A DNA stretch of 64,000 bases from Pasteuria penetrans (GTDB lineage: Bacteria > Bacillota > Bacilli > Thermoactinomycetales > Thermoactinomycetaceae), in the NCBI RefSeq assembly GCF_900538055.1, contig NZ_UZAC03000001.1, positions 1,798,001-1,862,000 of the forward strand. Direction: 5' to 3'. The notes under the pieces are model-generated. The model had not been told where the DNA came from. It saw nothing but the letters and a program-made list of their open reading frames with translations, and searched no databases. Below, one piece after another: positions 2,542 through 63,420 of this stretch. Every line of letters starts with the position of its first letter. The stretch's first letter is position 1. The position numbers were made by a program, and so were the translations under genes.

Positions 2542-2696
2542 AACAGGTTGGTTGATCGTGTATAATGATTGGACGTTGGGTTTCGGGGGAGTTTTTCTTG
2601 GCGTTTGTGATGGGAGATCGAGGTTTGTTTCGTATTCGTAGAATTTCGCAAAAAATTGTCTTTCATTGAGACGAGCTGGTGGGAGGGGACGGAAGG

Positions 2697-3332
2697 TTGA
2701 TCAAAGGGGTCACAAAGTATGAGTTGCCACCTTTGCCCTACGATTTAAGGGCTTTGGAGCCGCATATCGATGCATTGACAATGGAGATCCATCATGGTCG
2801 TCATCATGCCATGTATGTGGGTAACTTGAACGCTGCTTTGGAAAAAGTCGACGTGGAGGGTAAGTCGATTGAGGAATTATTGGGTTCCCTAGATACGTTG
2901 CCTGAAAAAGTCAGGACCGCTGTGCGAAACAACGGCGGTGGGCATGCCAATCACTCATTATTTTGGCAGATTCTTAGTCCTGAGGGCGGTGGGCAACCCG
3001 GGGGTGATCTTGCTAAGGATATTGACAAGACTTTCGGTAGTTTCGATGCTTTCAAGAAGAATTTTACGGAGGCGGCTACCAAGCGCTTTGGTAGCGGCTG
3101 GACCTGGTTGGTTTGGGACGGTAAGGCCTTACAGGTGCTCAGTACCCCTAATCAGGACAGTCCTCTGATGCAAGGATTGTCCCCCATCATGGGTTTGGAT
3201 GTCTGGGAGCATTCCTACTATTTGCGTTACCAAAACAAGCGTCCTGCTTATATAGAAGCCTTTTGGAACATTGTGTACTGGCCAGAGGTAGAGAGTCGTT
3301 ATTCTAGGGTACGCAGCGGATCTCTAGCCTGA
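2697..3332 (+). CDS. sodA: Superoxide dismutase, Mn/Fe type
   Basis: A cytosolic enzyme converting superoxide to oxygen and hydrogen peroxide. The 211-residue reading has the family start YELPPLPYD near residue 8, the first metal His in MEIHHGRHH (about residue 32), the second in [13 protein letters not shown], and the last Asp and His in [11 protein letters not shown]; all four ligands are present. The GGHANH and Gly-rich context fits the manganese form, but metal choice cannot be proved here. TTG 2697 is preferred because GGGAGGGG lies 8 nt upstream and the N terminus then has normal length; an in-frame GTG occurs at 2679. A rho-independent terminator follows the stop. Confidence 0.93.
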
Positions 3333-3362
3333 TGGGGTGTGAAGGTAGTTGTGTACGGGATA

Positions 3363-3397
3363 GGGTTTCCCACAGCGATTGTGGGGTACCCTTTTTT
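3363..3397 (+). terminator. Terminator after sodA
   Basis: A hairpin with CCCACA/TGTGGG core and outer GGGT/ACCC pairs around a short loop, followed directly by six T residues. It lies about 30 nt after the sodA stop. Confidence 0.8.
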
Positions 3398-3588
3398 GTT
3401 GGCTGTGGGAGAGGTAGGGGGCAAGCATGAGCGTTCCACAAATATTGTATGATCTCATGAATTTATCATAAATAAATAATAAACTGTATACTGTTTCTGA
3501 ATTATAAAAAATAATCAGAAAATGTGGAATAGCTGCCTGTGGTTATTGGGATGAAACTTGGGTTGGCCCCATCCAAGGAGGGGTAAGG

Positions 3589-4473
3589 ATGCGTTTGGCA
3601 ACCTACATAGTGCGGTCCAAATTCTTGCGCGTTTCCACCATGCCACAACCACCCGGTCGTTTGGGATGGGTGGTTGGGGAGAGGATTGTTGATGCAGAGT
3701 TGGTATGGAACCTACCGGGATTCAGGGAGAAGTGGGCGGAAATTCTACGACCTAGCAAGCCCATCTGGCCAGCCACATTGGGGCAGTACCTGTGTTTGCC
3801 CCCCTTCATTCGTTCTACCTGGTTGTGTTTCCTAGGGGAATTCCTTACCCACCATGAGTACGGGGACGAGGTGGAGGGGGAGCCATTAGCCCTCCACCTG
3901 GAGGAAGTGGATCTGTTGCCACCTTGGCCGTTGCGTACGATAAGTTGGCATCGTGATGAGCAGGAGGGGACGGAGGGAGAACCGTTGAATTCTGTTCTTC
4001 CTCATCCTGTGTTGGTAGGTTGCTATGCTGATCTCCCCCTATCAACGGTGGATACGAAGATACAGGTGGATCTGGGAATGGCGGCCGCCGTAGCTAAGGC
4101 AGGATCCTCCTCACCGGTATCAACGCTAGGGGGGTATACACTTTGGGCGTCGCTACGGACAGAACATTCTCCGGATCATCTTTGCTTGGGTCCGTGGTTG
4201 ACTACGGATTCCTCTCTTCCCCCCACACTCGCGTGGGAAGTTTCCGTTCAGGGCAGGGAGGTAACCTCTGGGCAGAATGATTTGTTCCTCTGTTTGGATT
4301 CCCTGCAACCGGTTCGTACATCCGCCTGGGGGGCTCGTCAGGCCAATATAGGGGATGCGCTTGGGGTACGATGGGCAACGTTTTTTGTAGAACCGGGTGA
4401 GGAATGGATGTTCCGGGTGGATGGTTTGGGGATTTTGGCACCCCGTTTGGCAATTAGGATAGGGGTAGGATAG
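3589..4473 (+). CDS. Diverged FAH-fold (fumarylacetoacetate hydrolase family) protein
   Basis: A 294-residue protein whose order of weak motifs follows the FAH family: N-terminal MRLATYIV...GWVVGERIVDAELVW, a central VDLLPPWPL, a later LGGYTLWASLRTE, then GPWLTTDSSLPP, and a C-terminal EPGEEWMFRVDGLGIL. In active members the stretch after VDLLPP leads to a D/E-rich metal site (the ExE and D ligands). Those acids are not visible: the aligned stretch reads KIQVDLGMAAAVAKAG. The fold is probably kept but catalysis is doubtful. A strong AAGGAGGGG precedes ATG 3589. Its last 136 bp overlap the 3' end of the convergent YheC/D gene. The family call is moderate; the substrate is unknown. Confidence 0.6.
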   Translation: MRLATYIVRSKFLRVSTMPQPPGRLGWVVGERIVDAELVWNLPGFREKWAEILRPSKPIWPATLGQYLCLPPFIRSTWLCFLGEFLTHHEYGDEVEGEPLALHLEEVDLLPPWPLRTISWHRDEQEGTEGEPLNSVLPHPVLVGCYADLPLSTVDTKIQVDLGMAAAVAKAGSSSPVSTLGGYTLWASLRTEHSPDHLCLGPWLTTDSSLPPTLAWEVSVQGREVTSGQNDLFLCLDSLQPVRTSAWGARQANIGDALGVRWATFFVEPGEEWMFRVDGLGILAPRLAIRIGVG

Positions 4474-5222
4474 TTTTTCCGATAGTGATAGAATCGGTTC
4501 AACATACCTTTGTCGAACTCACCAAACGGGGATATATGGGGACGTGTGTTTACTTCTAGGATCCATGGATGATAGTGCCCATCCCAACCTATATCGAAGC
4601 CCAGTTCTCTGACCCGAGGATGATACTTATGGAAGGTATTTGATGCCAATTGTACGATTTTTTTGGTGGATTGGAGGATTTTTTCGTATCTTTTTGCGGT
4701 TACGCCCCTGGTCAGGAATAGGTTTTCTATGGGATGTAGGCTTCCGCCCCTGGTCTTGTTAGTGACGATCCGCCCGTCGGCAGCGACGCGACCCACCCAA
4801 CCGGTAATGTCCATGTGGCCTATAGGGTTACACTGTACCATGAAACGGCTATCGAAAGGCCGACCTTTATGGTGGAGTAGGGGAATGCCTTGTTGTATTA
4901 CGTAGCGTTTTCCCTGTGTGAAATAGCTCTTTATCCAGGTGAACAGATGATGATGGTTGGGAAAAATCTTACTCTTATGGCGGGCATAATCCACACGGTA
5001 GGTGGGATTCGTTTGGGTATTTTTCTGTTGTCGGGTGATTTTGAGAATGTTCTTTCCTCCCGTACCGTATTCCGGTTTTACATATGCGGTGGAATAGGTA
5101 TTCAAAATGGATAGGGCCTGTGTATTATGGAATGGGTGCAAGACAGGAAGAAAGGCCTGCAGGGAGGGTTCTTTAGCTAGTAGGTTTGTTTTGTACAATT
5201 TACTGGCGAGGGGTTTGTTCAT
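4338..5222 (-). CDS. YheC/YheD-type ATP-grasp protein
   Basis: A 294-residue protein of the YheC/YheD endospore-coat-associated family, which has an ATP-grasp fold. Visible marks are YVKPEYGTGGKNIL (ATP-binding loop, about residues 47-60), YVIQQGIPL, GRPFDSRFMVQ, and LGFDIGWDGHY followed by WILEVNTRP, the C-terminal metal and nucleotide acids. It lacks the N-terminal domain of the 360-450-residue members, so it is a short form. GGAGGCGG lies upstream of ATG 5222. The C terminus overlaps the FAH-fold gene antisense. In Bacillus, relatives are made in the mother cell; the substrate is not known. Confidence 0.85.
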   Translation of the reverse strand: MNKPLASKLYKTNLLAKEPSLQAFLPVLHPFHNTQALSILNTYSTAYVKPEYGTGGKNILKITRQQKNTQTNPTYRVDYARHKSKIFPNHHHLFTWIKSYFTQGKRYVIQQGIPLLHHKGRPFDSRFMVQCNPIGHMDITGWVGRVAADGRIVTNKTRGGSLHPIENLFLTRGVTAKRYEKILQSTKKIVQLASNTFHKYHPRVRELGFDIGWDGHYHPWILEVNTRPHISPFGEFDKGMLNRFYHYRKNYPTPILIAKRGAKIPKPSTRNIHSSPGSTKNVAHRTPSASPILA

Positions 5223-5696
5223 AGTTGTATTTTCCGCCTCCGTTGCTCGGGTTTTCAGGCGTTTAAGGGGATAACTTGTTCCTCCATCGTATGAGTTTGT
5301 CGAGGGGGGGGTTTGTGAGTATTCTGGAGTTGGACCCGTGCCTATAGCTCTGACCTTTTTAGATGTGCAAAAAGGGCCCCCATGCGGGCCTCCCTATTCG
5401 CTGCAAATTCTTTTTTATTATAGAAAAACAATAAAAAAATAATTTTTTATATTTATGGGCAGGGGAACTTGTTCAAAAATTATTTGGTACGGACAGGTGT
5501 TATAGAATACAACCTCCTGTGGAAATTTCTAACCCTAATTTTTGGTTCTCTGGGGGAATCATCACTCGCATTTTTGGGTATAATTTTTTGTTGATTTGTA
5601 AAGATAGAAAACTCGTTTTTTACTCATTTTTCTTAGTCAATTTTCAGTATAAATAATTACGAATGATTGTCCTAGGGCCGGTTTTTTTGCATCCCT
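5223..5696. other. AT-rich intergenic stretch
   Basis: No gene is seen. A short G/C-rich inverted repeat lies near 5378-5398, and the sequence after it is AT-rich up to the IS256-like element. Confidence 0.5.
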
Positions 5697-5995
5697 GGCA
5701 GCATCCCGTTGGGGGTGTGAATTTCTGAACAGGGCTTTTGGGGGAGGATTTCCCCCCATTTGAGGTGCTTCTCCCATGGACTACTATATAAAATAAATTT
5801 ACTATATTAAAATATAAAACGTATATTTTGGTTTTCTAGCTCTTTCCCCCCTTTTTTACCTATGTCACTATAGTACTTGACCCATCCTAATTCGTTAAAA
5901 ATGGTAATTAATTTCCATTTTCTTTTTGTTTATCTTTCTGTTATACTGTTCCGTAAAAATTGAAAATTTTATGGAATAGAGGGGGATATAGATTG

Positions 5996-7252
5996 ATGAA
6001 CCACACTACTTATACCGCCTTACCGGCCCCTATTTGTGATAAAAAAATGGAGAACGATCTCCTAGAGCGGGTACAATATTTGCAAAAATCAGGATTATCA
6101 TACGAGAAAGCCGTTCAAACTGTCGGGCATTCTATTCTGCATGATAAAAACTGGGGAAATTCCACCATTGGAAAAGCTTGGACATGGTTGGCCAACTATG
6201 AAAGAGATCAATATCTGGGGCGAAGAAAGTATCAAAGAGACAACGGAGGACGCTGTACAATCATCAGAAATGGATATAGAAAACGTGTTTTAGATACCCA
6301 TAGGGGTCCCATTACTTTTTTCATTCCACGATTACGAGACGTCAAGTTCCAGTCCGTTCTAGCCGATCCCTATTTCCGTTATGATCCCTACTTGCTGGAA
6401 AAGATCGTTTCCCTTCGAATCAGCGGTATGTCCCTGGGGGTCATCGCGGGGCAAACAAAGTGGATCTTCGGCAAGAGGATTCCCCGTTCCACCCTCTCCC
6501 AACGTCTTATTTCCCAGTATGATAGCCACCTAGACGCGTGGAATCTCCGTTCCCTACAGAACCAGTATTCCGCTCTTCAGGCCGATGCTACTTATCTCAG
6601 GATCCGGGGGGGCAAAGGGAAAAAAATAGCCATTTACATAGTAATGGGACGTAGGTGGGACGGTGTATGGGAAATTCTTTACGTTGGATACGGTCCACCT
6701 GAAACGTTGGACACCTGGAACCAGGTTTTCAAAAATCTCCGCTCGCGGGGCTTATCATCGGTTCCTTTGATCGTTACCGGCGCTCATCCTGGCCTCAAAA
6801 CGGCTGTTCGTGTCCATTACCCCGCATCGGATTGGCAACGATGTATTGCCCATTTCTTTAGAAACCTGCGGGATGCCGCTGAGGAGGACTCTTTTCCCCC
6901 AGAGATACTCTTTGATAGGATGCGCAAAGAGGTTCTGGAATCCCCGGATTGTGAAACGGCCTATGCAGTTGGCATGAGGATATGCGAGGATTATAAAGAC
7001 GTGGCCCCGAAAACGGTAAAAGTATTGCGAAAGGGCCTGCGAGATATCACCATCCACCTCGGACACGACCTTACTCATCAGAAGTCGAATCGGAGTACCA
7101 ACATCCTGGAGAATTTAAACGGGAATTTAAAACGCATTACGAACAAAGCTCGCTGCTATCCTGATGACAGGGCTGCTTATCGGATATCCACCCTCTTCTG
7201 TCTCCGTGATCACCAAAAACGGCAGGAAACAACGGACCAGAGGATAGCATGA
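5996..7252 (+). CDS. IS256 (Mutator) family transposase
   Basis: A 418-residue DDE transposase for cut-and-paste movement. The first catalytic Asp is in ALQADATYLRIR (about residue 205). The last Glu is in STNILENLNGNLKR near the C terminus. The second site, usually SDAHxGL, reads VTGAHPGLKTAV, with Gly where Asp is expected, so activity is doubtful. The Cys/His pair RCIAHFFRNL is normal. ATG 5996 is favoured because GGGGGAT lies 10 nt upstream; an ATG at 5960 is also in frame. Confidence 0.85.
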   Translation: MNHTTYTALPAPICDKKMENDLLERVQYLQKSGLSYEKAVQTVGHSILHDKNWGNSTIGKAWTWLANYERDQYLGRRKYQRDNGGRCTIIRNGYRKRVLDTHRGPITFFIPRLRDVKFQSVLADPYFRYDPYLLEKIVSLRISGMSLGVIAGQTKWIFGKRIPRSTLSQRLISQYDSHLDAWNLRSLQNQYSALQADATYLRIRGGKGKKIAIYIVMGRRWDGVWEILYVGYGPPETLDTWNQVFKNLRSRGLSSVPLIVTGAHPGLKTAVRVHYPASDWQRCIAHFFRNLRDAAEEDSFPPEILFDRMRKEVLESPDCETAYAVGMRICEDYKDVAPKTVKVLRKGLRDITIHLGHDLTHQKSNRSTNILENLNGNLKRITNKARCYPDDRAAYRISTLFCLRDHQKRQETTDQRIA

Positions 7253-8879: not shown

Positions 8880-9005
8880 GTGTGTCAAGAAGTCGTTCAA
8901 GAAATGAAGGTTGCTCGGCCCTTCGTAACCGGCTGGTAGGTAGCAGGTTACAAACCGCCTAGTGCTGTGTGTCAAGAAGTCGTTCAAGAGATGAAGGTTG
9001 CTCGG
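8880..9005 (+). mobile_element. Group II intron 5' ends, one inside another
   Basis: Bases 8880-8966 are the first 87 nt of the intron family seen at 13830 and 53375 (GTGTG start, ending AGTGCT). At exactly that point a second intron 5' end begins (8967-9005) and is cut off. This is the same internal insertion site (site A) used in the large array. Confidence 0.8.
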
Positions 9006-9140
9006 CTCGGGGACGGTCAGATCTTTCTGTACGGAACCTCTGTACGTCAAAAACCCTGCTCCAGCAAGGAGCAGGGTTTTATTTGTTTAAAAATGTTAAT
9101 TGGGAATCCAACCCGAATCCTGTATCTATCTATTCAGGAC
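9006..9140. repeat. Inverted duplicate of 18712-18870
   Basis: The stretch from GGGACGGTCAGATCTTTCTG through the hairpin terminator to AATCCTGTATCTATCT is present in reverse complement at 18712-18870 with scattered substitutions. Together with the direct duplication this shows complex rearrangement of the locus. Confidence 0.75.
9050..9080 (+). terminator. Rho-independent terminator
   Basis: AAACCCTGCTCC pairs perfectly with GGAGCAGGGTTT around AGCAA, followed by T-rich sequence. It could end transcription from the secreted-protein gene on the plus strand. The inverted copy near 18790-18822 has mismatches in the stem. Confidence 0.8.
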
Positions 9141-13829: not shown

Positions 13830-15702
13830 GTGTGTCAAGAAGTCGGTCAAGAGATGAAGGTTGCTCGGCCCTTCGTAACCGGCTGATAGGTAGCAGGTTA
13901 CAAACCGCCTAGTGCTGCTGGGGTTAAATGCCTTGGTTGTGAGCGATCTAGGAAAAGGCAGGGCATGACCCTGTCAGGTGGGAATCGGGGAGATCAGCGA
14001 AAGCGAACCGTTCGAAGACGCATCGAAAAATGTAGTCCATGTCAAAACCGATGTGGGTATCGGACGTCGGGATGAACCGTGGGGGGCGACCTATCTTCTG
14101 CCCCGGTGGCATGCGGTGTATAGGCGGGATGAACCCGATTTAGGCTCTTGATCGGAACTTGAGAGATCGTCGTACGGCGTCTGGCTGTCGCCAGATGTAA
14201 AGACCGAGGGCTAACCGAGGTTCCGTGCACGAAGTCGGATCAACCCATAGTAGTGTAGAAGCTTCTGTAATGGAAGTGGAGCGAAGGGGTTGAATTGCCT
14301 GCATGTTTCAGAGAAGTACAGCAACTTGGATGGAAATTACCGGAAGAGGAGACTGGTATGAAGCAAGCAACATCGGACCAAAATCCAGACAGATACAATA
14401 TACAGCAGAAAGAGGTACTGAAGGCGTGGCATCAGGTAATGTCTAACGATGGAGGTCCTGGAGTGGATCAGCAGACGATTACCGCATTCGCATACGATCT
14501 GAGAAGTAATTTGTATGTGATATGGAATCAACTCTGCGCAGGATCCTACTTCCCCTCCAAGGTTAGGCGTGTGTGGATTCCCAAGTCATGCGGTGGAAAA
14601 AGGCCACTTGGCATACCCACGGTAGCAGACCGGGTAGCCCAGACGGTAATAAAGAATCGGCTTGAGCCTCTCCTAGAGACCCACTTTCATGGAGATTCCT
14701 ATGGATGTCGCCCCAAGAGATCAGCGCATCAGGCGTTACGTGTAACCCGTGAGCGCTGTTGGGAGTACGACTGGGGAATCGACCTCGACATAGTGGGCTT
14801 CTTTGACAACATTCCGCATCACCTCATTTTGAGGGCCCTTGAGCACGTTGGGGCGGATAAAGTAACGTTACTCTATTGCAAGAGGTGGCTTAAGGCACCG
14901 GTATTATTACCTGATGGGACGAGCGAGGAAAGGGTTAAGGGCACGCCGCAAGGTGGAGTCGTAAGTCCCCTCCTGGCCAATCTGTTCCTGCACTACGCTT
15001 TTGATCAATGGATAGAAACGGAGCACCCCGATATACGTTTTGCGAGGTATGTAGATGATATTATCGTCCACTGCCGGAACAAAGCGCAAGCTGAACATCT
15101 TCTTTCAGAAATTCGGCAAAGATTGGCAGAGTGCGGGCTGGAACTGCATCCGGAGAAGACCAAAATCTTCTACTGTGAAGATGATAGGCGGAACGGGAAT
15201 CATGATGTTGTTGCCTTTGATTTTCTAGGGTACGCATTCAAGGCCCGTGAGGTCAGAAGTCGTCGTACAGGGGTGAGATTTGTGGGTTTCGTACCAGCCA
15301 TAAGCCAAAAATCTAAAAGCAAGATAGCTAGGCAAGTTGGGAAGCTGGGCATCCCAAGTAGAGTGGGCATAGATCTGGAGGAGATAGCAAACCTTCTCCA
15401 TGCCAAACTCATGGGATGGCTTACCTATTATGGCGCCTTCTACCCTTCGGCCATTAGGAGTTTCTTGCGTGACCACATCGACCAAGTTCTGGCTCGATGG
15501 GCCACGAAGAAATACAAAAAGCTGAACAATTGGAAAAAGGCCCTGAGATGGGTTCGATATATACGGGGAAAGTACCGAAGGCTGTTTGTACACTGGCATC
15601 TGAATAGGACAAGATCCTAATGGGGCAATAAGAGCCGTATAATGGGAGACTATTAAGTACGGTTCTGTGAGAGGGTTGGCTGAAATGCCAGCCCTACTCG
15701 AC
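13830..15702 (+). mobile_element. Full-length ORF-bearing group II intron
   Basis: A self-splicing ribozyme and retroelement of 1873 nt. It starts GTGTG and ends with domain V (15632-15665, GAGCCGTAT...GTACGGTTC with AGC triad and GAGA loop) and a domain VI hairpin ending CTACTCGAC. Both ends are fixed by the IS3 orfB reading frame, which closes exactly when they are removed. Domain IV holds the reverse transcriptase gene. Its first ~460 nt are close to the ORF-less introns at 53375-60163, so it is a possible helper for them. Confidence 0.93.
14358..15620 (+). CDS. ltrA: Group II intron reverse transcriptase/maturase
   Basis: A 420-residue protein that assists splicing of its intron and copies it into new sites. 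ATG 14358 is chosen because AGAGGAG lies 7 nt upstream and family members start at this point (MKQATSDQN); an in-frame TTG occurs at 14295. Reverse transcriptase blocks are complete: RPLGIPTVADRVAQ, IDLDIVGFFDNI, GTPQGGVVSPLLANL, and FARYVDDIIV with the YxDD active site. The maturase thumb (GIIM type) follows. The protein ends after KKYKKLNNWKKA and RRLFVHWH with no HNH endonuclease domain, so integration would use endonuclease-independent routes. Confidence 0.95.
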   Translation: MKQATSDQNPDRYNIQQKEVLKAWHQVMSNDGGPGVDQQTITAFAYDLRSNLYVIWNQLCAGSYFPSKVRRVWIPKSCGGKRPLGIPTVADRVAQTVIKNRLEPLLETHFHGDSYGCRPKRSAHQALRVTRERCWEYDWGIDLDIVGFFDNIPHHLILRALEHVGADKVTLLYCKRWLKAPVLLPDGTSEERVKGTPQGGVVSPLLANLFLHYAFDQWIETEHPDIRFARYVDDIIVHCRNKAQAEHLLSEIRQRLAECGLELHPEKTKIFYCEDDRRNGNHDVVAFDFLGYAFKAREVRSRRTGVRFVGFVPAISQKSKSKIARQVGKLGIPSRVGIDLEEIANLLHAKLMGWLTYYGAFYPSAIRSFLRDHIDQVLARWATKKYKKLNNWKKALRWVRYIRGKYRRLFVHWHLNRTRS

Positions 15703-20263: not shown

Positions 20264-20406
20264 GTGTGTCAAGAAGTCGTTCAGAAATGAAGGTTGCTCG
20301 GCCCTTCGTAACCGGCTGGTAGGTAGCAGGTTACAAACCGCCTAGTGCTGTGTGTCAAGAAGTCGTTCAAGAGATGAAGGTTGCTCGGCCCTTCGTAACC
20401 GGCTGG
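20264..20406 (+). mobile_element. Group II intron 5' ends, one inside another (copy 2)
   Basis: 20264-20349 is an intron 5' segment of 86 nt. At its AGTGCT a second intron 5' end begins (20350-20406), which is cut by the ISL3 right end. It has the same arrangement as 8880-9005. Confidence 0.8.
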
Positions 20407-22271
20407 GGCTCTTGGCCAAACTTCGGACCCGGAATATCCTTGGGCGGTTTTTTTCTAATTCTGGATTGCAAGGATGAATTAGATGGGGCCCACTCTTCCC
20501 CATAATTAGTTTGTTTATTCAGTTTATTGTACACGAGCCCATGCCGAAGAGCATCTGTCTCTATTAATTTATAAAATAAATAAAAATAAAAGTATGTGCT
20601 TTTTTCTATTATGTATCCAAAATTATTGAATGCATTTTTATTTTATTTTATGTTTATTAAACACTATATTAATATTATGAAACATTCCGGCAATTTACCC
20701 CCTGATCGTTTTCCAAGTGGCTATTGCGACATACGATAGCAAGGTTCTCATAGTTCCTCCAAATCCGAACCCCAAAACGTTGGCGAAAGTCAAGCTTGGT
20801 GGCACAGTTCTTTCCCTCTATAAGAGCGTTGGTAGCCTTGTCTCCTCGATGGTAATTTGCAATGGACTGTTGCCCCCTCTGTAAGCTCTCTGCACCTTTT
20901 CTAATGTTCTTGTGGTCGTGCTGTAATCCTACCCCGATGAGAGCGTGCAGATTATTGTAAGCCTCGGTAAAAGTGGGATAATCGGTGTCATACCATTTTC
21001 CAACATCCTCTATAAATTCGTAGGCTTCCCCAAGTTTATGCCAATCTGCAAGATGAAATATTTTTTCCAGGAGTAGCCTCTTGGATTCGGGAAGTAATCC
21101 TCTGTGTTTTTTCTTCAGGGCGTCCTTTACGAACCCTTTGATCCTGGACAGATATTTCCAATTTTCGAGTTCCTTATACATACAGTCCACCCATTCCCGG
21201 TGCAGATGACAAGACAAATGCCAGCGGAAAACAAAGAAATCACGGGGGAAGAATTTCTCCTTTTTCTTGTAAAATGCTAACAAATCTGTAATATATTCAT
21301 ACTTATTCTTTAATTTTTCTGAACAACTAGGTAATTCATTAAGAATATTCCTCTCTTGATCGGAAAGTTCTTCTCGATAATTTTTCCATAGTAGGTCAAG
21401 TAACAATTCCTTTATGGTGGAGGCAAATCGCTTATCCCTAAGAGTGACTTTCAGAGGAGGGTGTAAGGTAAGATCCCTTATATTCTTGATGATGTGAAAG
21501 CGGTCAAACACAATAAGCGCGTTGGGGAATTCCGATAGAGCAAACTTAGTATAGGTAGGGGCTCGGTCCATGGCAATAACCGCTGGATCAAGTTCATATA
21601 GGTGGTGATTTTGCCTCTGGTAGTCCATAAGTTCCTCATATTTTCGGCCTTTTATCACAGCCAATACAGACCCAAGTTTTGTATCATAGATATAGCTTGC
21701 GTAGTTCTTACCTTTCCTTGTCGATGTATCATCTATATCGATGGTCAAACAGCGTCCCTGTTCCCTGGCCTGCCTAATGGCCTTTTCCTCGAGTTCTTTT
21801 CTCTTTCTAGGAAGAAATTCATCAAAAAATAGGGTATAACCTGTTCTCACCGGTATTCCATGTAACCTTGTTGCCTTCGCTGCTGAAGATATAACTGCCG
21901 TTGACGAGAACATTTCCCTACAAAAATCTGCATATTTTTTCCATTTCTCAACAAATGCATACACATGGTTGAATTTGTTCTCGCAGTAGGTACATCTCCA
22001 TCGTTGGGGTTTCATAACGGATTCAATTTCCCATAAGCCAAGGATGCCGTGTTTTATTTTCCGTTTCTTGTCGAATCCCGCTCTCACAAATTTTTGTCCC
22101 AAATTTCCCGAATCCTCACAGGAACACCTGATTCCCGGGGATGGACGGTTGACAATGGACTTTAGGATATAACGAATTCTCATTTTATCTGATCCTGTGG
22201 GTCCTAATTTCTCTATTTTCATGATTTTCACTTCGTCCGAAAAGGGGGGCCTTGGGAAATCTAGTTCTGTT
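20407..22271 (-). mobile_element. ISL3-family element, copy a
   Basis: The terminal repeat GGCTCTTGGCC begins at 20407 (transposase 3' side) and matches, in inverted form, the left ends of the copies at 39068 and 52434 (GGATCTTGGCC). The 5' side is cut near 22271 by a group II intron fragment, so only one terminus remains. Confidence 0.75.
20675..22231 (-). CDS. ISL3-family transposase
   Basis: A 518-residue DDE transposase, apparently intact. The N-terminal zinc-finger region has CSCEDSG and CTYCENKF (residues ~35-85). Core motifs are TIDIDDTSTRKGKNYAS (first Asp), VIAMDRAPTYTKFALSEF and LIVFDRFHIIKNI (central Asp), and DKATNALIEGKNCATKL (Glu, residue ~465). The next-to-last segment FRQRFGVRIWRNYENL is typical. 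It serves as the reference for the two broken ISL3 copies. One terminus of its element is missing, so movement is unlikely unless another copy supplies it. Confidence 0.9.
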   Translation of the reverse strand: MKIMKIEKLGPTGSDKMRIRYILKSIVNRPSPGIRCSCEDSGNLGQKFVRAGFDKKRKIKHGILGLWEIESVMKPQRWRCTYCENKFNHVYAFVEKWKKYADFCREMFSSTAVISSAAKATRLHGIPVRTGYTLFFDEFLPRKRKELEEKAIRQAREQGRCLTIDIDDTSTRKGKNYASYIYDTKLGSVLAVIKGRKYEELMDYQRQNHHLYELDPAVIAMDRAPTYTKFALSEFPNALIVFDRFHIIKNIRDLTLHPPLKVTLRDKRFASTIKELLLDLLWKNYREELSDQERNILNELPSCSEKLKNKYEYITDLLAFYKKKEKFFPRDFFVFRWHLSCHLHREWVDCMYKELENWKYLSRIKGFVKDALKKKHRGLLPESKRLLLEKIFHLADWHKLGEAYEFIEDVGKWYDTDYPTFTEAYNNLHALIGVGLQHDHKNIRKGAESLQRGQQSIANYHRGDKATNALIEGKNCATKLDFRQRFGVRIWRNYENLAIVCRNSHLENDQGVNCRNVS

Positions 22272-22714
22272 GGTTCCGTGCACGAAGTCGGATCAGCTCA
22301 TAGTAGTGTGGAAGCTTCTGTAATGGAAGTGGAGCGAAGGGGCTGACTCATCCTGAGGAGGACAGTAAAATGAAACTTTAGTGGGAGATCCGCTAGAGGA
22401 GATCACTGGAACCTCGGAGCAACATCCCTATAATCGAAGTAGGACCTAAAGGGTCTGAAGATTGGGATGGGATGAGAAGAGCTGGATGATGCGAGAGTAT
22501 CACGTCCAGTTCTGTGAGGGACTCGGCTGAAATGCCGGGTCTACTCGACGCTGGGGTCAAATGCCCTGGCTGTGAGCGATCTAGGAAAAGGCAGGGTATT
22601 TGACCCTGTCAGGTGGGAATCGGGGAGATACCGTTCGAAGACGCATCGAAAAGCGTAGTCCATGTCAAAACCGAGGTGGGGTGCTAACGTCGGGATGAAC
22701 CGTGGGGGAGCGGT
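22272..22714 (+). mobile_element. Group II intron 3' half followed by intron body resuming at site A
   Basis: 22272-22549 is the 3' half of a 667-nt type intron, ending CTACTCGAC. The next bases (22550, GCTGGGGTCAAATG) are the intron sequence that normally follows site A, and run to 22714. This is the right-hand junction of an intron once inserted at site A of another intron; the 5' parts are gone. Confidence 0.8.
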
Positions 22715-48503: not shown

Positions 48504-52334
<3,831 letters not shown>

Positions 52335-53761
52335 GGAAAACTTTTCATAGAAGGTACTGTTACACTCAGTTGGATGGGTTCGTAGGAATGTCCCCGTAGG
52401 TCTACCACAGGCCGCGGGGGCATGTTTTTTGTGGATCTTGGCCGCATATTGGACCTGGGGATTCAGTCTCGGGAGTGGGGGGTTGAACCATGTTTACATC
52501 TGCCTAGATTTGAATTCTATCCCACTGTATTCCAAGGTATTCTGGAGGGAATATATAGTAGGACACATACATTATTTTTATAAAATTTAAGTTTTATATG
52601 TTATAATCATGGGCAACTCACCCTTTATCGGGGGGACTAAGGGGCTGTCGAGATGAAAACAGGACTAAATTTTCCAAGGCCCACTTTTTCGGACGAAGTG
52701 AACATCATAAAAGAAAAATTAGGAACCACAAAATCAGATGGAATGAGTTATATTCCTAGAGTCCATTGCCAACCGTTCATCCCCGGGAATCATGTGTTTC
52801 TGTGAGGATTCGGGAAACCTGGGACAAAAATTGGTGAAAGCAGGATTAGACTAAGGAACGAAAAATAAAACACGGCATCTTTGGTTTAGGGGAAGTTGAA
52901 TCCGTTATGAAAACCCAACGATGGAAATGTATCTACTGCAGGAACAAATTCAACTATGTGCATGTATTTTTTGTAAAAGTAAATAAATATACATATCTTT
53001 GTATGTAAATGTTTTCATTAACGGCAGTACTAGTCAGCAGCGAAAGCAGAAAGGTTACATGGAATATCGGTGAGAACAGGTTATATCCTATTTTTGATGA
53101 ATTTCTTTCTAAAAAGAGAGAAGATCCCGAGGAAAAGGCTATCAGGAAAGCCAAGGAACAGGGACGTTGTGGACTATCGGTATGGATGATACATCGACGA
53201 GGGGAGGTAAGGACTGCGCAAGCTATATCGTATGATATAAAACTGGGGTCCGTATTGGCTGTGATAAAGGGCCGAAACTATTAGGAACTTGATTCGTCGG
53301 TTATTGCTATGGTCCGAGCCCAAACTTATGCCAAGTTTGCTCTATCGGAATTCCCCAATGCGCTTGTTGTGTTGTGTGTCAAGAAGTCGTTCAAGAGATG
53401 AAGGTTGCTCGGCCCTTCGTAACCGGCTGATAGGTAGCAGGTTACAAACTGCCTAGTGCTGCTGGGGTAAAGTGCCCTGGTTGTGAGCGATCTAGGAAAA
53501 GGCAGGGCATGACCCTGTCAGGTGGGAATCGGGGAAATCAGCGAAAGCGAACCGTTCGAAGACGCATCGAAAGGCGTAGTCCATGTCAAAACCGAGGTGG
53601 GGCACTAACGTCGGGATAAACCGTGAGGGACGACCTATCTTCTGCCCTGGTGGCATGCGGTGTACAGGCGGGATGTGTGTCAAGAAGTCGTTCAAGAGAT
53701 GAAGGTTGCTCGGCCCTTCGTAACCGGCTGATAGGTAGCAGGTTACAAACCGCCTAGTGCT

Positions 53762-54428
53762 GTGTGTCAAGAAGTCGTTCAAGAGATGAAGGTTGCTCGG
53801 CCCTTCGTAACCGGCTGGTAGGTAGCAGGTTACAAACTGCCTAGTGCTGCTGGGGTAAAGTGCCCTGGTTGTGAGCGATCTAGGAAAAGGCAGGGCATGA
53901 CCCTGTCAGGTGGGAATCGGGGAGATCAGCGAAAGCGAACCGTTCGAAGACGCATCGAAAGGCGTAGTCCATGTCAAAACCGAGGTGGGGCACTAACGTC
54001 GGGATAAACCGTGGGGGACGACCTATCTTCTGCCCCGGTGGCATGCGGTGTACAGGCGGGATGAACCCGATTTAGGCTCTTGGTCGGAACTTGAGAGATC
54101 GTCGTACGGCGTCCGGCTGTCGCCAGATGGAAAGACCGAGGATAAACCGAGGTTCCGTGCACGAAGTCGGATCAGCTCATAGTAGTGTGGAAGCTTCTGT
54201 AATGGGAGTGGAGCGAAGGGGCTGACTCATCCTGAGGAGGACAGTAAAATGAAACTTTAGTGGGAGATCCGCTGGAGGAGATCACTGGAACCTCGGAGCA
54301 ACATCCCTATAATCGAAGTATGACCTAAAGGGTCTGAAGATTGGGATGGGATGAGAAGAGCTGGATGATGCGAGAGTATCACGTCCAGTTCTGTGAGGGA
54401 CTCGGCTGAAATGCCGGGTCTACTCGAC
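53762..54428 (+). ncRNA. Intron U3 (type A, 667 nt)
   Basis: Uninterrupted intron at site A of U2. Domain V lies at 54358-54391 (GAGCTGGATG...GTCCAGTTC). Confidence 0.9.
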
Positions 54429-55095
54429 GTGTGTCAAGAAGTCGTTCAAGAGATGAAGGTTGCTCGGCCCTTCGTAACCGGCTGGTAGGTAGCAGGTTAC
54501 AAACTGCCTAGTGCTGCTGGGGTAAAGTGCCCTGGTTGTGAGCGATCTAGGAAAAGGCAGGGCATGACCCTGTCAGGTGGGAATCGGGGAGATCAGCGAA
54601 AGCGAACCGTTCGAAGACGCATCGAAAGGCGTAGTCCATGTCAAAACCGAGGTGGGGCACTAACGTCGGGATAAACCGTGGGGGACGACCTATCTTCTGC
54701 CCCGGTGGCATGCGGTGTACAGGCGGGATGAACCCGATTTAGGCTCTTGGTCGGAACTTGAGAGATCGTCGTACGGCGTCCGGCTGTCGCCAGATGGAAA
54801 GACCGAGGATAAACCGAGGTTCCGTGCACGAAGTCGGATCAGCTCATAGTAGTGTGGAAGCTTCTGTAATGGGAGTGGAGCGAAGGGGCTGACTCATCCT
54901 GAGGAGGACAGTAAAATGAAACTTTAGTGGGAGATCCGCTGGAGGAGATCACTGGAACCTCGGAGCAACATCCCTATAATCGAAGTATGACCTAAAGGGT
55001 CTGAAGATTGGGATGGGATGAGAAGAGCTGGATGATGCGAGAGTATCACGTCCAGTTCTGTGAGGGACTCGGCTGAAATGCCGGGTCTACTCGAC
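54429..55095 (+). ncRNA. Intron U4 (type A, 667 nt)
   Basis: Follows U3 without spacer and is nearly identical to it. Confidence 0.9.
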
Positions 55096-55762
55096 GTGTG
55101 TCAAGAAGTCGTTCAAGAGATGAAGGTTGCTCGGCCCTTCGTAACCGGCTGGTAGGTAGCAGGTTACAAACTGCCTAGTGCTGCTGGGGTAAAGTGCCCT
55201 GGTTGTGAGCGATCTAGGAAAAGGCAGGGCATGACCCTGTCAGGTGGGAATCGGGGAGATCAGCGAAAGCGAACCGTTCGAAGACGCATCGAAAGGCGTA
55301 GTCCATGTCAAAACCGAGGTGGGGCACTAACGTCGGGATAAACCGTGGGGGACGACCTATCTTCTGCCCCGGTGGCATGCGGTGTACAGGCGGGATGAAC
55401 CCGATTTAGGCTCTTGGTCGGAACTTGAGAGATCGTCGTACGGCGTCCGGCTGTCGCCAGATGGAAAGACCGAGGATAAACCGAGGTTCCGTGCACGAAG
55501 TCGGATCAGCTCATAGTAGTGTGGAAGCTTCTGTAATGGGAGTGGAGCGAAGGGGCTGACTCATCCTGAGGAGGACAGTAAAATGAAACTTTAGTGGGAG
55601 ATCCGCTGGAGGAGATCACTGGAACCTCGGAGCAACATCCCTATAATCGAAGTATGACCTAAAGGGTCTGAAGATTGGGATGGGATGAGAAGAGCTGGAT
55701 GATGCGAGAGTATCACGTCCAGTTCTGTGAGGGACTCGGCTGAAATGCCGGGTCTACTCGAC
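55096..55762 (+). ncRNA. Intron U5 (type A, 667 nt)
   Basis: Third of the tandem trio. The next base resumes U2 after its site A (GCTGGTGTGG). Confidence 0.9.
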
Positions 55763-56064
55763 GCTGGTGTGGAAACACCCCGGTGGTGAGCGATCTAGGA
55801 AAAGGCAGGGCATGACCCTGTCAGGTGGGAATCGGGGAGATCAGCGAAAGCGAACCAGCCGAAGACGCATCGAAAGGTATAGTCCATGTCAAAACCGATG
55901 TGGGTCCCGAACGTCGGGATGAACCGTGGGGGATGACCTATCTACTGCCCCGGTGGCATGCGGTGTTCAGGCGGGATGTGTGTCAAGAAGTCGTTCAAGA
56001 GATGAAGGTTGCTCGGCCCTTCGTAACCGGCTGATAGGTAGCAGGTTACAAACCGCCTAGTGCT

Positions 56065-56731
56065 GTGTGTCAAGAAGTCGTTCAAGAGATGAAGGTTGCT
56101 CGGCCCTTCGTAACCGGCTGGTAGGTAGCAGGTTACAAACTGCCTAGTGCTGCTGGGGTAAAGTGCCCTGGTTGTGAGCGATCTAGGAAAAGGCAGGGCA
56201 TGACCCTGTCAGGTGGGAATCGGGGAGATCAGCGAAAGCGAACCGTTCGAAGACGCATCGAAAGGCGTAGTCCATGTCAAAACCGAGGTGGGGCACTAAC
56301 GTCGGGATAAACCGTGGGGGACGACCTATCTTCTGCCCCGGTGGCATGCGGTGTACAGGCGGGATGAACCCGATTTAGGCTCTTGGTCGGAACTTGAGAG
56401 ATCGTCGTACGGCGTCCGGCTGTCGCCAGATGGAAAGACCGAGGATAAACCGAGGTTCCGTGCACGAAGTCGGATCAGCTCATAGTAGTGTGGAAGCTTC
56501 TGTAATGGGAGTGGAGCGAAGGGGCTGACTCATCCTGAGGAGGACAGTAAAATGAAACTTTAGTGGGAGATCCGCTGGAGGAGATCACTGGAACCTCGGA
56601 GCAACATCCCTATAATCGAAGTATGACCTAAAGGGTCTGAAGATTGGGATGGGATGAGAAGAGCTGGATGATGCGAGAGTATCACGTCCAGTTCTGTGAG
56701 GGACTCGGCTGAAATGCCGGGTCTACTCGAC
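56065..56731 (+). ncRNA. Intron U7 (type A, 667 nt)
   Basis: Uninterrupted intron at site A of U6. Confidence 0.9.
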
Positions 56732-57398
56732 GTGTGTCAAGAAGTCGTTCAAGAGATGAAGGTTGCTCGGCCCTTCGTAACCGGCTGGTAGGTAGCAGGT
56801 TACAAACTGCCTAGTGCTGCTGGGGTAAAGTGCCCTGGTTGTGAGCGATCTAGGAAAAGGCAGGGCATGACCCTGTCAGGTGGGAATCGGGGAGATCAGC
56901 GAAAGCGAACCGTTCGAAGACGCATCGAAAGGCGTAGTCCATGTCAAAACCGAGGTGGGGCACTAACGTCGGGATAAACCGTGGGGGACGACCTATCTTC
57001 TGCCCCGGTGGCATGCGGTGTACAGGCGGGATGAACCCGATTTAGGCTCTTGGTCGGAACTTGAGAGATCGTCGTACGGCGTCCGGCTGTCGCCAGATGG
57101 AAAGACCGAGGATAAACCGAGGTTCCGTGCACGAAGTCGGATCAGCTCATAGTAGTGTGGAAGCTTCTGTAATGGGAGTGGAGCGAAGGGGCTGACTCAT
57201 CCTGAGGAGGACAGTAAAATGAAACTTTAGTGGGAGATCCGCTGGAGGAGATCACTGGAACCTCGGAGCAACATCCCTATAATCGAAGTATGACCTAAAG
57301 GGTCTGAAGATTGGGATGGGATGAGAAGAGCTGGATGATGCGAGAGTATCACGTCCAGTTCTGTGAGGGACTCGGCTGAAATGCCGGGTCTACTCGAC
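56732..57398 (+). ncRNA. Intron U8 (type A, 667 nt)
   Basis: Joined directly to U7. The following base resumes U6. Confidence 0.9.
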
Positions 57399-58422
57399 GC
57401 TGGTGTGGAAACACCCCGGTGGTGAGCGATCTAGGAAAAGGCAGGGCATGACCCTGTCAGGTGGGAATCGGGGAGATCAGCGAAAGCGAACCAGCCGAAG
57501 ACGCATCGAAAGGAATAGTCCATGTCAAAACCGATGTGGGTCCCGAACGTCGGGATGAACCGTGGGGGATGACCTATCTACTGCCCCGGTGGCATGCGGT
57601 GTTCAGGCGGGATGAACCCGATTTAGGCTCTTGATCGGAACTTGAGAGATCGTCGTACGGCGTCTGGCTGCCGCCAGATGGAAAGACCGAGGACAACCGA
57701 GGTCCCGTGCACGAAGTCGGATCAGCTCATAGTAGTGAGGAAGCTTCTGTAATGGAAGTGGAGCGAAGGGGCTGACTCATCCTGCGGAGGACAGTTAGAT
57801 GAGAACTTTAGCGGGAGATCCGCTGGAGGAGATCAAACGACAACTTTAGTGGAGATCCACTATAGGAGGTCACTGGAACCTCGGAGCAACATCCCCATAA
57901 TCGAAGTAGGGCCTAAAGGGTCTGAAGATTGGGATGGGATGAGAAGAGCCGGATGATGCGAGAGTATCATGTCCGGATCTGTGAGGGACTCGGCTGAAAT
58001 GCCGGGTCTACTCGACGAACCCGATTTAGGCTCTTGATCGGAACTTGAGAGATCGTCGTACGGCGTCTGGCTGTCGCCAGATGTATAAAGACCGAGGACA
58101 AACCGAGGTTCCGTGCACGAAGTCGGATCAGCTCATAGTAGTGAGGAAGCTTCTGTAATGGAAGTGGAGCGAAGGGGCTGACTCATCCTGCGGAGGACAG
58201 TTAGATGAGAACTTTAGCGGGAGATCCGCTGGAGGAGATCAAACGACAACTTTAGTGGAGATCCACTATAGGAGGTCACTGGAACCTCGGAGCAACATCC
58301 CCATAATCGAAGTAGGACCTAAAGGGTCTGAAGATTGGGATGGGATGAGAAGAGCCGGATGATGCGAGAGTATCATGTCCGGATCTGTGAGGGACTCGGC
58401 TGAAATGCCGGGTCTACTCGAC

Positions 58423-59797
58423 GTGTGTCAAGAAGTCGTTCAAGAGATGAAGGTTGCTCGGCCCTTCGTAACCGGCTGATAGGTAGCAGGTTACAAACCG
58501 CCTAGTGCTGTGTGTCAAGAAGTCGTTCAAGAGATGAAGGTTGCTCGGCCCTTCGTAACCGGCTGGTAGGTAGCAGGTTACAAACTGCCTAGTGCTGCTG
58601 GGGTAAAGTGCCCTGGTTGTGAGCGATCTAGGAAAAGGCAGGGCATGACCCTGTCAGGTGGGAATCGGGGAGATCAGCGAAAGCGAACCGTTCGAAGACG
58701 CATCGAAAGGCGTAGTCCATGTCAAAACCGAGGTGGGGCACTAACGTCGGGATAAACCGTGGGGGACGACCTATCTTCTGCCCCGGTGGCATGCGGTGTA
58801 CAGGCGGGATGAACCCGATTTAGGCTCTTGGTCGGAACTTGAGAGATCGTCGTACGGCGTCCGGCTGTCGCCAGATGGAAAGACCGAGGATAAACCGAGG
58901 TTCCGTGCACGAAGTCGGATCAGCTCATAGTAGTGTGGAAGCTTCTGTAATGGGAGTGGAGCGAAGGGGCTGACTCATCCTGAGGAGGACAGTAAAATGA
59001 AACTTTAGTGGGAGATCCGCTGGAGGAGATCACTGGAACCTCGGAGCAACATCCCTATAATCGAAGTATGACCTAAAGGGTCTGAAGATTGGGATGGGAT
59101 GAGAAGAGCTGGATGATGCGAGAGTATCACGTCCAGTTCTGTGAGGGACTCGGCTGAAATGCCGGGTCTACTCGACGCTGGTGTGGAAACACCCCGGTGG
59201 TGAGCGATCTGGGAAAAGGCAGGGCATGACCCTGTCAGGTGGGAATCGGGGAGATCAGCGAAAGCGAACCAGCCGAAGACGCATCGAAAGGTATAGTCCA
59301 TGTCAAAACCGATGTGGGTCCCGAACGTCGGGATGAACCGTGGGGGATGACCTATCTACTGCCCCGGTGGCATGCGGTGTTCAGGCGGGATGAACCCGAT
59401 GTAGGCTCTTGATCGGAACTTGAGAGATCGTCGTACGGCGTCTGGCTGTCGCCAGATGTATAAAGACCGAGGACAAACCGAGGTTCCGTGCACGAAGTCG
59501 GATCAGCTCATAGTAGTGAGGAAGCTTCTGTAATGGAAGTGGAGCGAAGGGGCTGACTCATCCTGCGGAGGACAGTTAGATGAGAACTTTAGCGGGAGAT
59601 CCGCTGGAGGAGATCAAACGACAACTTTAGTGGAGATCCACTATAGGAGGTCACTGGAACCTCGGAGCAACATCCCCATAATCGAAGTAGGACCTAAAGG
59701 GTCTGAAGATTGGGATGGGATGAGAAGAGCCGGATGATGCGAGAGTATCATGTCCGGATCTGTGAGGGACTCGGCTGAAATGCCGGGTCTACTCGAC
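58423..59797 (+). ncRNA. Intron U9 (type B, interrupted once)
   Basis: 58423-58509 and 59177-59797 (708 nt), directly after U2 inside site B of U1. Its site A holds U10. Confidence 0.88.
58510..59176 (+). ncRNA. Intron U10 (type A, 667 nt)
   Basis: Uninterrupted intron at site A of U9. Confidence 0.9.
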
Positions 59798-60619
59798 GAA
59801 CCCGATTTAGGCTCTTGGTCGGAACTTGAGAGATCGTCGTACGGCGTCTGGCTGTCGCCAGATGAAAAGACCGAGGATAAACCAAGGTTCCGTGCACGAA
59901 GTCGGATCAGCTCATAGTAGTGAGGAAGCTTCTGTAATGGAAGTGGAGCGAAGGGTCTGACTCATCCTGAGGAGGACAGTAAAATGAAACTCTAGTGGGA
60001 GATCCGCTAGAGGAGATCACTGGAACCTCGGAGCAACATCCCTATAATCGAAGTATGACCTAAAGGGTCTGAAGATTGGGATGGGATGAGAAGAGCTGGA
60101 TGATGCGAGAGTATCACGTCCAGTTCTGTGAGGGACTCGGCTGAAATGCCGGGTCTACTCGACGGACCGCTTTCACATCATCAAGAATATAAGAGATCCT
60201 ACACCCTCTTCTGAAAGTCGCTCTTAGGGATAAGCGATTCGCTTCCATTATCAAGGAATTGTTCCCCGCCCTGCTTGGAAAAATGATTGGGGGGAACCCT
60301 CCGATCGAAAGGAGAATATTATTAATGAATTACTTATTGTTTCAAAAAATTAAATAATAAGAATGAATATATTACATATTTATTAGTGTTTTATAGGAAA
60401 AAGGAGAAGTTCTTCTCCCTCGATTTTCCCCCGTGATTTCTTCGTCTTCCGCTGGTCTTTGTCTTGTTCTCTGCACTGGGAATGGGTCGATTGTATGCGT
60501 GCGTGAAGAACCCAAAAATGGGAAATACTTGTCCAGGATCAAAGGGTTCGTAAGGGACGCCCTAAAGAAAAAATACGGGGGGTTACTTCCCGAATCCAAA
60601 GGGCTATTCCTGGGGAAAA

Positions 60620-62549: not shown

Positions 62550-63089
62550 ATGTATTACCTTCTGGTCGGTAACAAATGGAGTGAATGGAAACCGTATTCG
62601 GCTTTGTTTTTAGGGGGTAATGGTAGTATGCTTGTTGAGACAATGCAAAGTGATCAGGAACTGAGTCAATGGGTTTCGGCACGGTCTCCCGCTTGTTCCT
62701 CTTCTGTTCCTGCACGATGGTCTGTTTCTCTGCGGAATGCGCTTGTGGTGTTGTGGGTTCTGTTGGTATATCCACGCCTTGTTCCAGCCCTACGCAAGCA
62801 GCTTCCCCCTCAATTGACGGTAACGCGTCTGGTGAAGCAGTTGCCTGCTTATTTTGTTTCCGAGTCCGTATGTTGGTTTTTGCTACATCGTCTCATGCGT
62901 TACGATTACATACGCATGAGAGGGGATCTCATCACCTCCGGTACGAAACTTTGGACAACCCTTGATGCAAAGCGTCTCCATGCCTTCGCTACCCATTCTC
63001 CCCAAGTGGGACGTTGGTTGCATCGTATGCGCCTGGCAGAACTGCGTGAGGGACCATCCACTTCCCAGAGAGTTGCTCACCATGGTTAG
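62550..63089 (+). CDS. Hypothetical protein upstream of the SASP gene
   Basis: A 179-residue reading. ATG 62550 has AAAGGGGG 5 nt upstream; the frame extends upstream to a TTG at 62331 without a good site. Residues 70-95 are hydrophobic ([21 protein letters not shown]) and may be a membrane helix. The C-terminal third is basic and helical ([23 protein letters not shown]). No family is recognised. It ends 58 nt before the SASP gene, so co-expression in the forespore is possible but unproven. Confidence 0.45.
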
Positions 63090-63147
63090 GTATGTTGTGG
63101 GGGTCGACGGAGCAGGCTACTTAGTGTCAAGGAGGTGTGACATAAAA

Positions 63148-63420
63148 ATGTTCCAATCATCAACGAACCAACAGCAGGAGGATTCTCGTCGTAACAATTC
63201 CAACAATCTCGTGGTTCCAGGTGCCGCACAAGCCATTGATCAAATGAAGAACGAGATTGCGCAAGAATTTGGGGTTCAATTGGGTCCTGAACAATCCTCC
63301 CGTTCCAATGGTTCCGTAGGTGGGGAGATTACTAGGCGATTGGTAGCCCTGGCTCAGCAGCAAATCAATGACAGCAATTCGGGTAACAAATCAAGTAGTA
63401 GTTTCTTCCCGCCCTCGTAA
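63148..63420 (+). CDS. Small acid-soluble spore protein, alpha/beta type
   Basis: A 90-residue forespore protein that coats spore DNA and protects it from UV and heat. AAGGAGGTGTGA precedes ATG 63148. The core is typical: [20 protein letters not shown], then EFGVQLG, the GPR protease site region, and [19 protein letters not shown]. The N- and C-terminal extensions are rich in Ser, Asn and Gln and longer than in SspA/SspB. By family knowledge it is expressed from sigma-G. A strong terminator follows. Confidence 0.95.

Follow-up and report, generated by a model that had tools for sequence, protein, structure and literature searches.

How do ten group II introns come to lie inside one another within a single decayed transposase gene? 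The question is raised by a 64,000-nt stretch of Pasteuria penetrans DNA (contig NZ_UZAC03000001.1, positions 1,798,001 to 1,862,000; hereafter the window, in whose coordinates positions are given unless a locus or contig is named), where two intron subfamilies without an open reading frame (ORF), type A and type B, form one continuous array at 53374–60163. We find that each subfamily carries an address matching a site within domain I of the other, and we consider it very probable that reciprocal retrohoming guided by the exon-binding sites EBS1 and EBS2, with reverse transcriptase (RT) provided in trans, built the nest. The analysis covers one genome assembly (2.52 Mb in 4 contigs) and draws on sequence only.

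The array is a single nest of seven type A introns (667 nt) and three type B introns (705–708 nt), four levels deep (Table 1). We divided each intron into three segments, s1 (nt 1–87), s2 (up to site B) and s3 (the remainder to the end). The first internal insertion site, site A, lies after nt 87 (AGTGCT), and the second, site B, lies after GGCGGGAT, at nt 301 in type A and nt 302 in type B. Parsed in this way, all segments abut without an extra or missing base. U1 (type A) holds a tandem of two type B introns, U2 and U9, at its site B. U2 in turn carries three tandem type A copies (U3–U4–U5) at site A and the type B intron U6 at site B, while U6 and U9 hold at their sites A the type A tandem U7–U8 and the type A intron U10, respectively. 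The ten units, their types and the two sites named in the original prediction, made from the window alone, are all reproduced, and its assignments were correct throughout; only its array start, 53375, was one base late.

Rfam model Intron_gpII (RF00029, domain V/VI) matches at all ten 3' ends with 56.5–60.3 bits, while group-II-D1D4-2 (RF01999) matches the 5' regions of the seven type A copies, which are uninterrupted. Every unit begins with GUGUG and ends with CGAC, in agreement with the group II pattern of 5' GUGYG and 3' AY, and the gap-free parse yields what defines a twintron, namely a complete inner intron with exact boundaries for inner and outer intron alike. The gene interrupted by the nest encodes a decayed ISL3 transposase: the outer exons read EFPNALVV(L)DRFHIIK, with the codon TT/G split by U1 at the slash, a conserved ISL3 transposase segment identified through an intact ISL3 copy at 20675–22231 (PF01610).

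Table 1. Introns of the nest, their exon-binding sites and the related RT-coding intron of the window
Feature	Position	Strand	Remarks
U1, type A, outermost, 667 nt	53374..53674 + 59798..60163	+	3' part with domains V/VI
U2, type B, 708 nt, at site B of U1	53675-53761, 55763-55977, 58017-58422	+	segment parse
U2 segment 2	55763..55977	+	ends in site B (TGTTCAGGCGGGAT)
U2 segment 3	58017..58422	+	bears domains V/VI
U3, type A, first of three tandem copies at U2 site A	53762..54428	+	667 nt
U4, type A, tandem	54429..55095	+	667 nt
U5, type A, tandem	55096..55762	+	667 nt
U6, type B (EBS2 GAAUA), 705 nt, at U2 site B	55978-56064, 57399-57613, 57614-58016	+	segment parse
U7, type A, at U6 site A	56065..56731	+	667 nt
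U8, type A, tandem with U7	56732..57398	+	667 nt
U9, type B (EBS2 GUAUA), 708 nt, tandem with U2 at U1 site B	58423-58509, 59177-59391, 59392-59797	+	
U10, type A, at U9 site A	58510..59176	+	667 nt
EBS1 of U1/type A, GGCACU, hairpin loop	53601..53606	+	pairs with AGUGCU (6 bp) and ISL3 UGUGUU (5 bp)
EBS2 of type A, AGGCGUA	53572..53578	+	pairs with CGCCU upstream of site A and UGCGCUU in ISL3
EBS2 of U6, GAAUA (B nt 203 T>A)	57513..57517	+	complementary to UGUUC of its B host
EBS1 of U6, GUCCCG	57540-57545	+	
Related group II intron with full reverse transcriptase/maturase	13830..15702	+	ORF 14295-15620; site A empty

What directs each type to its site can be read from the EBS loops, which we located by covariation because energy-based and alignment folds of domain I disagreed and gave no clean, trustworthy consensus. 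EBS1, which occupies a hairpin loop of s2, reads GGCACU in type A, GUCCCG in type B, GUAUCG in an RT-coding family, and GGUCCU and GGUGCU in two further intron lineages of this genome, D and E. Its partner IBS1 (the intron-binding site), formed by the six bases upstream of the insertion, changes with it: AGUGCU for A, CGGGAU for B, CGAUAU or CGAUAC for the RT-coding family, AGGACU for D and AGCACC for E. Type A EBS1 pairs with site A at 6/6 positions and with the ISL3 site at 5/6, and type B EBS1 pairs with site B at 6/6, while either EBS1 pairs with the other type's site at only 3/6. Over 22 unique EBS1/IBS1 combinations, 107 positions pair, compared with 81 ± 5 after permutation (0 of 20,000 permutations as high), and 7 of 20,000 were as good when a single combination per EBS1 was used. 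EBS2 is the block just upstream of EBS1 (e.g. GAA-AGGCGUA-G). Its pairing with the exon 7–16 bases upstream was equaled in 0 of 3,000 permutations, and with one exon per EBS2 the median p is about 0.01, all of these being optimistic p-values because the copies are not independent and the counts treat related copies as separate.

We also scored each position of the host introns by EBS1 pairing, EBS2 pairing and a G at +1. For type A, nt 87 ranks first of 1,382 positions in type B and first of 3,712 in the RT-coding intron. Type B copies with EBS2 GUAUA (B-GUAUA) rank site B first of 1,300 positions in type A but fourth in type B, and those with GAAUA (B-GAAUA) rank it first of 1,382 in type B. 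Outside the array, only 3 of about 114,000 positions of the window reach type A's score: 13916, 20349 and 8966, each of them the site A of another intron. The earlier suggestion that the two types home to separate internal sites was to be checked by EBS pairing, and it is borne out, with full EBS1 pairing at both sites and the observed sites top-ranked.

The same organization extends well beyond the window. When 40 intron stretches from the genome were parsed in the same three-segment way, sorting was strict: site A held only A-type introns, in eleven AACCGCCT hosts and the AACCGCCC host L046, and site B held only B-type introns, 17 units in sixteen hosts. Type A is inserted not only in type B but also in RT-coding introns and other lineages. 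Chance is excluded, since more than a dozen further loci of this genome show the same junctions. Identical 667-nt tandem units are hard to assemble, so tandem unit counts may be wrong, and one could ask whether misjoined near-identical repeats have inflated both copy number and nesting. We give such an assembly artefact very little credence: base-exact junctions repeat at separate loci with unique flanks (L031, L034, L038, L040, L043, L046, L049, L052–L054, L057, L058, L060 and L061), and the address matching is independent of the assembly.

Site A is filled in all three type B copies of the window and empty in all seven type A copies, as originally observed, but at least 9 type B copies elsewhere have an empty site A. 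Genome-wide, filled and never-filled sites are divided not by A versus B but by the base 11 nt upstream of site A, with 11/35 AACCGCCT hosts filled and 0/21 AACTGCCT hosts (Fisher 0.004, the 21 including 11 identical young copies).

Type B, initially treated as a single subfamily, resolves into two address variants, B-GUAUA and B-GAAUA, that differ at B nt 203 (T or A). The bases upstream of site B read TGTAC or TGTAT in A-like hosts and TGTTC in B hosts, and the variants follow this division: B-GUAUA copies occupy 12 TGTAC/TGTAT hosts and 1 TGTTC host, B-GAAUA copies 0 and 4 (Fisher p 0.002), with all hosts of the latter TGTTC and mostly type B. The B-into-B insertion of the window, U6, is a GAAUA copy. 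A change of one guide letter thus appears to let type B also invade its own relatives. More tentatively, and with somewhat less than even confidence, we suggest that the addresses tell self from non-self: EBS2 would fit the partner's site better than its own, so that kin are spared and the other type is parasitized, and GAAUA would have broken this rule and started B-into-B insertion. B-GUAUA meets a U–U mismatch at the TGTTC of its own site B. Type A's own site A reads AACTGCC, which costs only a G–U wobble with its EBS2; this small cost, and the 11 identical copies among the 21 never-filled sites, speak against regarding the site-A base of type A as “immunity”.

Whether the nest grew by fresh insertions or by copying of one block can be judged from the relative ages of its members. 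The six inner type A copies of the array are 100% identical (U1 differs by 12 nt), and no difference over the 667 nt separates the eleven type A copies that occupy site A at five loci. Among the six B hosts compared there are about 10 changes; co-inheritance with them would predict 9.4 changes for six A copies, and 0 were seen (P about 8e-5). Diagnostic positions 203, 122, 312 and 396 distinguish U2, U6 and U9, and the three fall in different branches of the B tree, where U6 is closest to L054 and U9 to L052. Most complete B copies at site B are 0–8 nt apart and their outer host introns belong to clearly different lineages; the inner introns, eleven identical A copies and near-identical B copies, are thus young elements in older, diverged hosts.

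Long identical direct repeats invite recombination, and a single A-B-A nest might have formed once, with the segments between its repeats then duplicated as blocks or by unequal recombination. The tandem A-A-A and A-A copies are identical, so their later members could be recombinational, and truncated or unbalanced nests do occur: L054 (2386–4061) has three B-type 5' halves in a row with only two 3' ends, as does L049 (7877–9638), both likely recombination scars. The nest is nevertheless not one duplicated block, because A copies are identical in differing B hosts and U2, U6 and U9 lie in three branches. The comparison with L038 points the same way, as its U2' is identical to U2, yet U6 and U6' differ at about 9 positions and the A copies within are identical. 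A first tandem pair would, moreover, itself need flanking repeats to arise by recombination. The phylogeny called for in the original prediction therefore rejects a single block duplication, and we regard duplication as a highly improbable origin of the nest.

Movement of composites is a different possibility, in which B with A inside it (or B with B) was inserted into several copies of site B as one long intron. B copies at several loci do carry A (U2, U9, L038 and L049), and composite movement has been named as a possibility for Thermosynechococcus elongatus (PMC2882425). Yet on the B tree copies with A are interspersed among copies without it, the A-filled state needing 5 changes, and the two kinds share haplotypes; zero differences are found among the A copies, while their B hosts differ. 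Given established group II biology, a B intron with its domain I interrupted would probably have been inactive until A had spliced out. We consider composite retrohoming unlikely.

Reciprocal retrohoming of ORF-less introns would require RT from elsewhere, and the window itself contains a related RT-coding intron (Table 1). Its first 464 nt are 94% identical to type A, and a sister copy in L031 has site A filled by type A. The same RT is found in L039 and L055, giving three copies with identical intact RT ORFs, and the RT is broken in the L049 copy. Members of this family (the window copy, L031, L039, L049, L055 and L056) are inserted after CGATAC, CGATAT or CGATTC, and EBS1 GUAUCG perfectly matches most of these sites. 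The RT contains RVT_1 and GIIM domains only, and a search for an endonuclease domain in the protein encoded at 14295–15620 found none. Its closest relatives are rhizobial ltrA proteins, with about 51% identity to multicopy examples on Sinorhizobium meliloti replicons; the agreement with class D (RmInt1-like) RTs concerns this putative trans RT, not A or B themselves. This intron is a likely trans source of type A and type B mobility.

In the mechanism we propose, each RNA would be carried by RT supplied in trans from the related RT-coding introns of the same genome, and A or B RNA would reverse-splice into DNA matching its EBS1/EBS2 loops; introns lacking an endonuclease domain (En-minus) are described as priming from the replication fork (PMC4424553). 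The type A address fits the domain I sequence at nt 87 (site A) in type B introns, RT-coding introns and some others, and the type B address fits that at site B (nt 301/302), so A would enter B and B would enter A. B-GUAUA would fit A-like hosts (UGUAC/UGUAU), and B would enter B because the one-base variant GAAUA fits the UGUUC carried by type B hosts. Each insertion would recreate its own target at the upstream junction, since the 5' exon stays intact and the introns start with the G of GUGUG, and this recreated target would give rise to head-to-tail tandems, with new members entering upstream. The intron's own 3' end is a poor target (EBS1 2/6 for A, 4/6 for B). Upstream entry would make U2 younger than U9; tandem members beyond a first pair, being identical to one another, could be of recombinational origin. 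Inner introns would splice first, restoring the outer ones, and must probably do so before the outer domain I folds, as in Trichodesmium (PMC4649490). Of the runaway growth originally envisaged, the reciprocal addresses are supported and the runaway itself is only potential, as 11 inner A copies keep an empty matching site B.

Several points weigh against this account. The EBS loops are supported by covariation rather than by a full structure model, the EBS2 register must slide by 1–2 nt, and EBS1 is poorly matched in some outer introns (L052, L033 and L041). To these, and to the optimism of the p-values, must be added the GUAUA copy that L057 holds in a TGTTC host. The ORF-less introns could also be immobile relics, although their identical copies argue otherwise.

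The group II intron load of this 2.5-Mb genome is extreme. Domain V/VI matches number 117 at E ≤ 0.001, about 90 of them above the family cut-off; many of these matches belong to lineages other than those analyzed, and type A-like pieces number 110. Seven loci (L028, L034, L038, L048, L054, L058 and L060) have a third internal site, site C: there the outermost intron interrupts the RT ORF of an intron from a second RT-coding family, after codon 388 (DNVLAWWA/RKKYK). The L038 nest (2680–6095; C1:638179–641594) is five levels deep, comprising an RT intron, D, B, B and A. Type A itself gave one weak match only in 60 related genomes, the 98-nt site-A junction was found in none of 300 genomes of the class apart from the source genome, a GTDB scan for relatives of the RT returned distant ones only (45% and 35% identity), and a search of viral contigs found nothing.

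Two other places in the window have intron sequence in a site A. At 20264–22709, a GGUGCU-lineage intron contains a type A intron in site A; that type A intron is in turn interrupted by an intact ISL3 transposon (ORF 20675–22231, minus strand), whose transposase bears a TTGTGTT-like site of the same kind as that of U1. At 8880–9006 the flank is the same as at 20264 and only the first 40 nt of the inner intron remain; this copy is 3'-truncated, the opposite of what incomplete reverse transcription gives, and probably reflects a later deletion. We had considered the hosts at 8880 and 20264 to be older type A introns and rejected this, as s2 of the latter (EBS1 GGUGCU) belongs to another lineage. 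Directly upstream of the array, 48504–52334 encodes a 1276-aa collagen-like Gly-X-Y protein with GPTGPVGDT repeats, which suggests a spore-surface fiber protein, and a spore protein gene lies at 62962–63420; further collagen-like genes are also present.

Nested homing is already known, and several systems invite comparison. In Methanosarcina acetivorans (Dai & Zimmerly 2003, via PMC4424553 and PMC2882425), up to five introns are described as nested, each having homed to a specific site in another group II intron, with a “perpetual homing site”. That repeated homing is shared with our nest, whereas the targets there are, by the title of that paper, intron ORFs and both targets in the window lie in ribozyme domain I of ORF-less introns. 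Sites A and B (nt 87 and 301/302) thus differ from the Methanosarcina and Thermosynechococcus arrangement, in which the target is in the ORF of a related intron; site C, at other loci of this genome, is of that ORF kind. Also unlike Methanosarcina, two ORF-less subfamilies here target each other, the array counts ten units and includes tandems, and the host follows a single-base change in EBS2. In T. elongatus, F3 introns lie within F1 introns, the inner introns are identical and ORF-less, and trans mobilization was shown experimentally (PMC2882425). Identical ORF-less inner introns in diverged related outer ones, and families defined by EBS, are common to both systems, but the T. elongatus twintrons have neither reciprocity nor deep nests. 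The Trichodesmium erythraeum twintron has an inner intron that interrupts domain I of the outer one, with inner-first splicing shown (PMC4649490); unlike here, only one nest is involved, it lies in an active gene, and its two RT-coding introns are distant relatives. The hypermobile lycophyte mitochondrial intron cox1i1149g2, “invading itself” in two twintrons (Zumkeller et al. 2020, via PMC8393795), resembles B-GAAUA in entering its own kind, but it is organellar and that review reports no reciprocal partner.

The RT of the related coding introns, without an endonuclease domain, also recalls the RmInt1-type class D introns of Sinorhizobium. To our knowledge, ORF-less nested derivatives are not a feature of RmInt1. 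A literature search, most subscription papers being outside its reach, returned no report of mutual domain I targeting, head-to-tail tandems or a host-tracking EBS2 split, and nothing relevant on Pasteuria introns. Three features therefore appear to be new: the mutual targeting of sites in domain I, the stacking of copies in tandem, and self/other addressing by one nucleotide.

The known nested group II introns compared here are one-way and mostly target RT ORFs. In P. penetrans, the ribozyme core of each of two ORF-less subfamilies contains the other's target, and the host entered correlates with a single EBS2 base, suggesting that elements targeting each other can give rise to a “perpetual homing site”. 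One genome may thus suffice to read how target specificity, self-avoidance and parasitism evolve among ribozyme retroelements, and the predictions are directly testable by existing two-plasmid retrohoming assays.

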